The translations under genes and the position numbers were made by a program. Shown piece after piece: positions 31,291 through 58,978 of a stretch of 64,000 nt of DNA. Position 1 is the stretch's first letter; each line of letters opens with the position of its first letter. Where the stretch lies: the NCBI RefSeq assembly GCF_026151205.1, contig NC_087084.1, forward strand, positions 3,132,845 through 3,196,844, given 5' to 3'. A model generated the notes under the pieces. It was not told the DNA's origin. It searched no databases and was given only the letters and a program-made list of their open reading frames with translations. The DNA comes from Bolinopsis microptera. Its lineage: Eukaryota; Ctenophora; Tentaculata; Lobata; Bolinopsidae.

Positions 31291-32033
31291 GTATGGAGTC
31301 TGGGCACCTGCCCAACAAACGCTGACCAAGTCCAACACGGAGGAACGTAACATCTATCAGTGTAACCCGGAAGTAGATGAGCGAGGAGATTATGTAGAGC
31401 CTGATTGTTGGTACTGTGATAAAGGTAGGTCATCTAGTTTACTCTTGTATTCTGTGATGGGAAATTTTGTCCTAACATTTTTCAGTGTCCTTTTTAAAAT
31501 TTGCAAAAAGAGCGAGGGCGAAAAGGATATCAATGAAACTAATAAATCAATGAAACTAATAAATCAATATTTTAGCTCATTTTACAAAGTCAAATATTTA
31601 AAACAATTAAAATTGTATAGTGCTCAATTTGTAAATGACTAGTTGATCTTTGCTATTGGAAGTTTGTCAAGGACTGGCAGCTAGCGGGGCAAGGAATGCA
31701 CGGGCTTAGGGGCTTTTGTGCACACCAGAACACTAGCTCGGTACATTTTTGGAAACTAGAAGGACTGAAAACTAAAATTGTTTTTGATGGAGGTTGTGTG
31801 TAGCCAAGACGACTTACCACATAACCCCCAAAGGTTGCGAGAAAGAGTTCTACAGTCGAGCAGACTGCTATGCGGGTTGCAATAACAAGGAAACTTGCAA
31901 GTTGGCGTGCCGACACCATGAGACAATGTCCAGAACGAAGATTAACATAGAAGAGCTGACTGCAAATCTGTCTCGGAATGTTCCGCATGATATTTACGAG
32001 GAGGCAGACAAGAGGAATCATTCTACTATCTCG
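31291..32033 (+). CDS. Receptor exons 1-2: Cys-rich N-terminal region
   Basis: Exon 31291-31424 encodes YGVWAPAQQTLTK...DCWYCDK. It enters in phase 2 and leaves in phase 1 (AAAG|GTAGGT). Exon 31804-32033 follows a weak acceptor TTGTGTGTAG, restores Ala across the junction and encodes KGCEKEFYSRADCYAGC and CKLACRHH before a Glu/Lys-rich linker. It ends in phase 0 at TCG|GTAAGT. About nine cysteines in about 120 residues suggest a disulfide-bonded module preceding the first FN3. I do not recognise its family. The reading frame extends beyond the donor at 32033 only as intron read-through. Confidence 0.75.

Positions 32034-58978: not shown

Follow-up and report, generated by a model that had tools for sequence, protein, structure and literature searches.

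A predicted FN3-transmembrane-TIR gene with a bacterial-type TIR in the ctenophore Bolinopsis microptera

The analyzed DNA of Bolinopsis microptera (64,000 bases, C13:3132845-3196844; herein referred to as the window) contains a spliced gene at positions 31041-58978 of the + strand. At the level of genomic sequence, the presence of an FN3-TM-TIR gene in the window, as a single gene model, was confirmed. The analysis showed a conserved multi-exon coding unit with a Cys-rich region, one or more predicted FN3 domains, one transmembrane (TM) helix, and, beyond this helix, a TIR predicted to be of the bacterial type. With a probability of about 0.7, the encoded protein is a single-pass type I receptor with an FN3 ectodomain and a cytoplasmic bacterial-type TIR, in which ligand-clustered TIR assembly would signal.

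Twenty exons are supported by three-frame reading and splice-site scans, followed by comparison with a second copy of the gene (Table 1). In the window copy and the downstream copy alike, each of the 20 acceptors is AG and each of the 19 internal donors is GT. The first-pass annotation had joined 25 exons into one protein by following splice phases; the number is lowered to 20 here. When the window copy was read alone, several exons needed a frame change within the exon, and the junction between the last FN3 exon and the TM exon was out of phase. With the frame of the window copy broken in four exons, an intact protein cannot be obtained by following splice phases in the window alone. For the downstream copy, the idea of one protein holds: its 20 exons splice to a single open frame, 882 codons long and closed by a stop. 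No start exon with a signal peptide was found in two filtered searches upstream of the gene. A wider upstream list included hydrophobic starts, yet in none is the hydrophobic core followed by a good donor in the matching phase. Two further exon candidates were rejected. The candidate at 40789-40882, combined with an open alternative frame of exon 7, would leave one frame break fewer; comparison with the downstream copy, however, favors the other frame, and the length of the candidate is not conserved between the copies. The candidate at 45741-45841, for an exon missing between 44667 and 52273, was dismissed since the copy joins exon 13 directly to exon 14.

Table 1. Exons of the predicted FN3-TM-TIR gene, in window coordinates ("copy" is the downstream copy).
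Feature	Coordinates	Strand	Content and remarks
Exon 1 (first found)	31041..31133	+	Start of Cys-rich N-terminal region; skip 1, leftover 2; no start codon; AG/GT in both copies
Exon 2	31291..31424	+	Cys-rich
Exon 3	31804..32033	+	Cys-rich, then beginning of first FN3-like stretch
Exon 4	36149..36244	+	FN3-like by eye
Exon 5	36451..36604	+	FN3-like by eye
Exon 6	39529..39677	+	FN3-like by eye; no fn3 match alone
Exon 7	41297..41512	+	FN3; 1 base longer than in copy, frame break
Exon 8	41679..41842	+	FN3; exons 7-8 fn3 E 0.0032, not reaching cut-off alone
Exon 9	43212..43433	+	FN3; 1 base longer than in copy
Exon 10	43569..43702	+	FN3; exons 9-10 fn3 E 5.9e-6, over cut-off
Exon 11	43916..43997	+	FN3; exons 10-13 fn3 E 0.029, not reaching cut-off
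Exon 12	44169..44263	+	FN3; 1 base shorter than in copy
Exon 13	44546..44667	+	End of last FN3; 1 base longer than in copy; phase of copy fits exon 14 directly
Exon 14	52273..52378	+	Single TM helix (hydropathy peak); in-frame Met few residues upstream of helix
Exon 15	52591..52685	+	Juxtamembrane cytoplasmic linker
Exon 16	52916..53067	+	TIR part 1: box 1, BB loop
Exon 17	53244..53391	+	TIR part 2: catalytic-site Trp and Glu
Exon 18	53641..53760	+	TIR part 3
Exon 19	58595..58666	+	C-terminal tail
Exon 20	58911..58978	+	C-terminal tail, stop codon

The second copy was found by searching the genome itself (264.65 Mb, 232 contigs). With the spliced TIR as query, 8 candidates were scored and 6 matches obtained (E limit 0.01), distributed over the window and a site 88 kb downstream; all 28 matches of the ectodomain fell within these two places. 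Of the 64,000 window positions, 51,629 align collinearly about 79-91 kb farther along the chromosome, with 2.9% mismatches, gaps apart; for the gene locus, the distance is 80-89 kb. In the coding sequence, the copies are separated by 30 synonymous and 2 non-synonymous changes, at about 570 and 2076 sites, respectively, gapped codons being omitted (ratio 0.018, Fisher p 1.7e-18). Thus, the exon model is strongly tested by this comparison, which shows purifying selection on the gene. The synonymous difference, 5.3%, is above the overall mismatch rate.

The downstream copy is probably an uncollapsed second haplotype left in the scaffold, because a run of 100 N lies between the copies at 80094-80193 (window coordinates, C13) and the sequence just past it is the counterpart, with 84-90% identity, of the 2 kb preceding the window. 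If so, gene counts in this region are doubled. True tandem duplication, in which only the copy downstream works and the window copy is a pseudogene in decay, appears unlikely. This alternative would fit the four single-base length differences in the exons starting at 41297, 43212, 44169, and 44546, each of which breaks the frame of the window copy alone. It would also fit the segment between 62.6 kb and the gap (80.1 kb), which has no match of at least 300 bases within the 104 kb examined past the gap; a plain second haplotype should show such a match. However, the N gap followed by the counterpart of the sequence before the window is what a second haplotype predicts. Decay is further opposed by the scarcity of non-synonymous differences (2, vs. 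30 synonymous), by every splice-site pair being intact, and by the location of all four length differences in short homopolymers (two to five bases), where long-read errors commonly fall. Sequence error is a likelier source of the frame breaks than decay. A rather improbable alternative concerns the gene model itself, namely that two adjacent genes, one for a secreted or membrane FN3 protein and one for a TM-TIR protein, were wrongly joined, or that a short transcript begins at a Met before the TM helix. The FN3 block and the TM-TIR block are indeed separated by a 7.6 kb intron (44667 to 52273), their junction is predicted from genomic sequence, and exon 14 has an in-frame Met ahead of the helix. 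Nevertheless, the last FN3 exon of the copy has a leftover of 1 and the TM exon a skip of 2, so that the two join with nothing missing, and the donor and acceptor are conserved in both copies. Aligned open frames of at least 30 codons between the blocks have at most 4 synonymous vs. 1-3 other differences (4 vs. 2 in the best frame, 49067-49222), a scan that shorter exons would escape. FN3 and TIR2 are also described together in a single gene of Mnemiopsis leidyi (PMC11797021). The proposed FN3-to-TM-TIR junction of a single gene thus relies on phase, splice sites, and an intron with no clearly constrained exons.

The predicted protein consists of a Cys-rich N-terminus, FN3 domains, one TM helix, the TIR, and a short tail, in this order. 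In the Pfam scan of the 882-aa protein from the downstream copy, fn3 (2.3e-11, two stretches, best at 421-494), TIR_2 (3.6e-10, at 703-797), and TIR (1e-6) all scored over cut-off, FN3 and TIR_2 being found together in one predicted protein. The first joined pieces gave TIR_2 at 3.3e-11, TIR at 7.9e-8, and fn3 at 3.7e-12 (three stretches); the value for TIR_2 in spliced exons 14-18 was also 3.3e-11. No LRR was reported in the Pfam scans of the exon pieces and the 882-aa protein, and no Ig match passed the Pfam cut-off, Ig_ILCR1 reaching only E values of 0.038 and 0.12. SEFIR had no Pfam match (limit E 10; filters drop most matches above 0.1). These searches for FN3, TIR, and SEFIR had been proposed in the first-pass annotation, and their outcome agrees with its description of the layout as neither that of Toll-like receptors (LRR) nor that of IL-1R (Ig).

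Taken apart, only exons 9-10 pass the Pfam cut-off for fn3; no Pfam match was found for the end of exon 3 with exons 4-5, and no fn3 match for the stretch of exons 6-7. Therefore, the putative FN3 domains are graded as one firm, two likely, and two by eye. In the PDB, the FN3 part matched RPTP, Eph receptor, contactin, and Dscam chains (best 1.2e-10), as is usual for generic FN3 domains. A single helix of the protein is clearly hydrophobic, with a mean hydropathy of 2.78 at residue 642 against 1.3 for the next peaks, and basic residues directly follow it. This helix is preceded by 14 of the 15 N-glycosylation sequons, and 10 of the 16 ectodomain cysteines are located within the first 150 residues. 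The N-terminal Cys box has what we take to be a resemblance to anosmin; this candidate was rejected, as Pfam gave no match and the PDB nothing better than E 0.29 (searched from exon 2 on).

By profile and sequence similarity, which exceed those to other TIR classes, the TIR of the window is assigned to the bacterial type. A phmmer search of the PDB (E up to 10) found 17 distinct sequences: seven bacterial ones at 3.9e-15 to 3.5e-12 and, after a gap, plant SNC1 at 0.02, followed by nine weaker matches including plant proteins, CRISPR-associated Cat1, and Hydra Toll-receptor-related 2 (about 0.6, the sole animal one). Human TLR, IL-1R, MyD88, and SARM1 were absent among these 17 sequences. Among the PADLOC models, the TIR matched PDC-S66 at 1.2e-34 (118 bits) and ThsB at 6.3e-19 (66.6 bits). 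In control runs with PDC-S66, a bacterial TIR (7uxr) scored 256 bits, TLR2 31.2, and SARM1 19.5; the best scores on any PADLOC model were 31.4 bits for TLR2 and 44.1 bits for SARM1. The NCBIfam model retron-TIR matched at 1e-19 with 70.7 bits, its family cut-off of 600, set for the whole protein, being far above.

At least 450 relatives at E 1e-3 or better were found in genome contigs among the 590 matched stretches listed. Of these, the best 80 were retained: one is archaeal by title, and the others are bacterial, belonging to many phyla. The window TIR is 32.6-43.1% identical to these 80 TIRs and 15.3-21.3% identical to seven eukaryotic references (19-21% to three plant TIRs and 15-18% to TLR, MyD88, and SARM1). 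Of 40 alignment columns fixed in at least 72 of the 80 prokaryotic sequences, the window TIR has the fixed residue in 30, the references in 10-18, and the prokaryotic sequences in 33-40; since the best 80 were found by motifs covering some of these columns, the counts lean towards similarity. Of the 15 fixed columns with a residue that none of the references has, the window TIR shares only 7. The TIR had been characterized earlier as closer to bacterial and plant forms; the bacterial part of this view is upheld (4e-15 in the PDB, 33-43% identity), and the plant part is not (best E 0.02, 19-21% identity). TIR_2 as a Pfam label defines no subtype (PMC13142454). In the 2026 TIR atlas, ThsB of A. 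baumannii is placed in clade 2, one of the four clades with most bacterial sequences, apart from clade 1 (TLR, IL-1R, and MyD88), clade 4 (plants), and clade 8 (SARM1) (PMC13142454). A 2020 survey describes a TIR group 17 in which bacterial TIRs are mixed with those of lower metazoans and protozoans (PMC7075850).

Two trees were built. The first, with 46 of the best 80 prokaryotic sequences and the seven references, has very long branches and unsettled bootstrap values; the window TIR is located among the prokaryotic sequences, with 99/96 for that set. The second includes 20 of the best 80, six references, and three TIRs hand-picked from the 31 TIR_2 matches of the Bolinopsis genome. Here, the prokaryotic sequences, the window TIR, and the own-genome TIR L112 are separated with 98/93 from TLR/MyD88, plant, SARM1, and the two other own-genome TIRs; a grouping of the prokaryotic sequences and the window TIR alone is compatible as well (p 0.32). 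Because the prokaryotic sequences were found by motifs and bacterial-type TIRs of other animals are not included, these trees resolve no more than bacterial-type vs. TLR-type. A Toll/IL-1R-type receptor with a swapped ectodomain, that is, a fast-evolving animal TIR only looking bacterial, is improbable, and slightly more so than a wrong joining of two genes. Long branches are in its favor, and so is the AU test, by which forcing the window TIR together with TLR1/TLR2/MyD88 in the second tree is not formally rejected (p 0.092), at a lnL 21 worse. On the other hand, the 98/93 split, the identity of 15-18% to TLR, MyD88, and SARM1 vs. 33-43% to prokaryotic TIRs, and the lack of these human proteins and IL-1R among the 17 PDB sequences up to E 10 all oppose it. 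In the phylogeny that the first-pass annotation had called for, a position firmly inside the IL-1R/TLR clade did not appear. IL-17 receptors combine an FN3-type ectodomain with a related cytoplasmic domain, and a divergent member of this group (FN3-like ectodomain, TM, SEFIR) would have the same domain types in the same order. However, these receptors carry SEFIR in place of TIR, and the Bolinopsis protein has no SEFIR match while matching TIR_2 at 2.2e-11 and bacterial TIRs in the PDB at 4e-15, which makes this origin highly improbable.

The window TIR retains both the catalytic-site Trp and the catalytic Glu, which is E79 in the TIR piece. Among the best 80 prokaryotic sequences, Glu79 is found in all 80 and Trp75 in 79. 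Both residues are likewise found in six of the seven eukaryotic references, including TLR1 and TLR2, and thus are no marker of an enzyme. A survey also warns that the catalytic Glu by itself does not go with activity (PMC7075850). The BB-loop Asp, found in all 80 prokaryotic sequences, SARM1, and the three plant TIRs, is replaced by Ala in both copies of the gene. This position corresponds, by our alignment and residue count, to D594 of SARM1, where the D594E substitution abolishes NADase activity (PMC9381744).

Given its topology and its domains, the protein is most naturally read as a type I receptor triggered by a ligand or by contact. A ligand, either microbial or self, would bind to the glycosylated ectodomain; this binding, or clustering, would draw the cytoplasmic TIRs together, and this TIR-TIR assembly would be the signal. 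Its output may be scaffolding, that is, recruitment of further TIR proteins, many of which are found in the genome, or NAD+ cleavage, as in the bacterial relatives and SARM1. Scaffolding is held to be somewhat likelier, because the TIR has lost the BB-loop Asp but retains Glu and Trp; cleavage is a reasonable second candidate. That FN3 recognition directly activates a bacterial-type NAD+-cleaving TIR, making the protein a receptor enzyme, is a tentative and rather doubtful proposal. If true, cell death would follow or a cyclic-ADPR-like messenger would be made, and a Toll-independent animal immune route would have come from a captured bacterial anti-phage domain.

Several known systems resemble this predicted receptor in part. 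Bacterial defense and NADase TIRs (AbTIR, PADLOC PDC-S66, ThsB, and retron-TIR) belong to the same TIR sequence family and have the Glu and Trp in common with it. The Bolinopsis TIR differs from them by introns, TM attachment, and the BB-loop Ala for Asp; the bacterial proteins are not known to have the FN3-TM layout. Toll-like and IL-1 receptors are also type I proteins with a cytoplasmic TIR, but with LRR or Ig ectodomains and a TIR of another subfamily. Ig-TIR receptors of sponges are likewise TIR receptors of early animals without LRR; they have Ig rather than FN3, and their TIR is called homologous to the TLR type (PMC8242945, PMC6208332). In sponges, choanoflagellates, and an anemone, Ig-TIR, LRR-TIR, kinase-TIR, and other TIR_2 layouts are described, and FN3-TIR is not among the layouts in the available text of these sources (PMC8242945, PMC6208332, PMC6040629, PMC5094078). 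The available part of an amphioxus paper contained nothing matching the terms searched (PMC2575513).

The closest counterpart is found in another ctenophore. Two ionotropic glutamate receptor queries from the Bolinopsis genome had their best PDB match in ML032222a iGluR, a Mnemiopsis protein; seven of the 32 family matches were compared with this domain, and the best two loci are 68-74% identical to it, which points to a ctenophore other than M. leidyi unless these loci are paralogues. For M. leidyi, 15 TIR2 genes and no TLR are reported, and ctenophores in general reportedly have no Toll-like receptors (PMC11797021). Four of these TIR2 genes are induced by re-exposure to Vibrio, and one of them encodes TIR2 with extracellular FN3 repeats (PMC11797021). 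This non-TLR gene, 'gene 3', is likened here to the Bolinopsis gene by its published description, not by sequence. The ctenophore FN3-TIR gene is described as near to non-metazoan and early-metazoan TIRs; its TIR subtype, catalytic residues, or mechanism were not found stated in the available text (PMC11797021). Thus, the Bolinopsis gene belongs to a known, barely described kind. An independent receptor lineage, as suggested in the first-pass annotation, is plausible, but the FN3+TIR2 combination itself was already published for a ctenophore (PMC11797021). No paper was found under six variant names of the FN3-TM-TIR layout. FN3 recognition combined with a bacterial-defense-type TIR would be a layout alongside LRR-TIR and Ig-TIR, and it raises the question of whether bacterial TIR enzymes served at the cell surface of early animals earlier than Toll-MyD88 signaling or in its place.

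In total, 31 TIR_2 matches were found in the Bolinopsis genome, the window included and exons and copies counted separately. This repertoire is varied, with an open frame of 2311 codons on C1 and two TIRs per frame on C7 and on C11. A second bacterial-type TIR is located on the same chromosome as the window (L112, 1438-1983; C13:5978623), and its catalytic Glu is missing by eye.

Other elements were found in and around the gene. An intronless open frame at 42242-43015 of the + strand (ATG at about 42374; about 213 codons, rich in Ser and basic residues) is located inside the intron between exons 8 and 9. It has no Pfam match over cut-off and is probably a real unnamed gene, because the copies differ in it by 10 synonymous vs. 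2 non-synonymous changes. An ORF on the - strand at 29455-30538 looks by eye like the C-terminal part of a LINE-like reverse transcriptase, with no Pfam match; the stretch is present in the window copy and absent from the matching place in the downstream copy. The same absence was observed for a tandem repeat at 14910-16117 (317-bp unit, 3.8 repeats, 100% match). A TCC-rich element, 2-2.8 kb long and with runs of G and of C at its ends, was found at 27265-29238 and 33611-35986, with a copy at 124877-127643 (window coordinates). It is placed differently in the two copies of the region, has a 6-base target duplication at 33611/35986, and is possibly a mobile non-autonomous DNA element.
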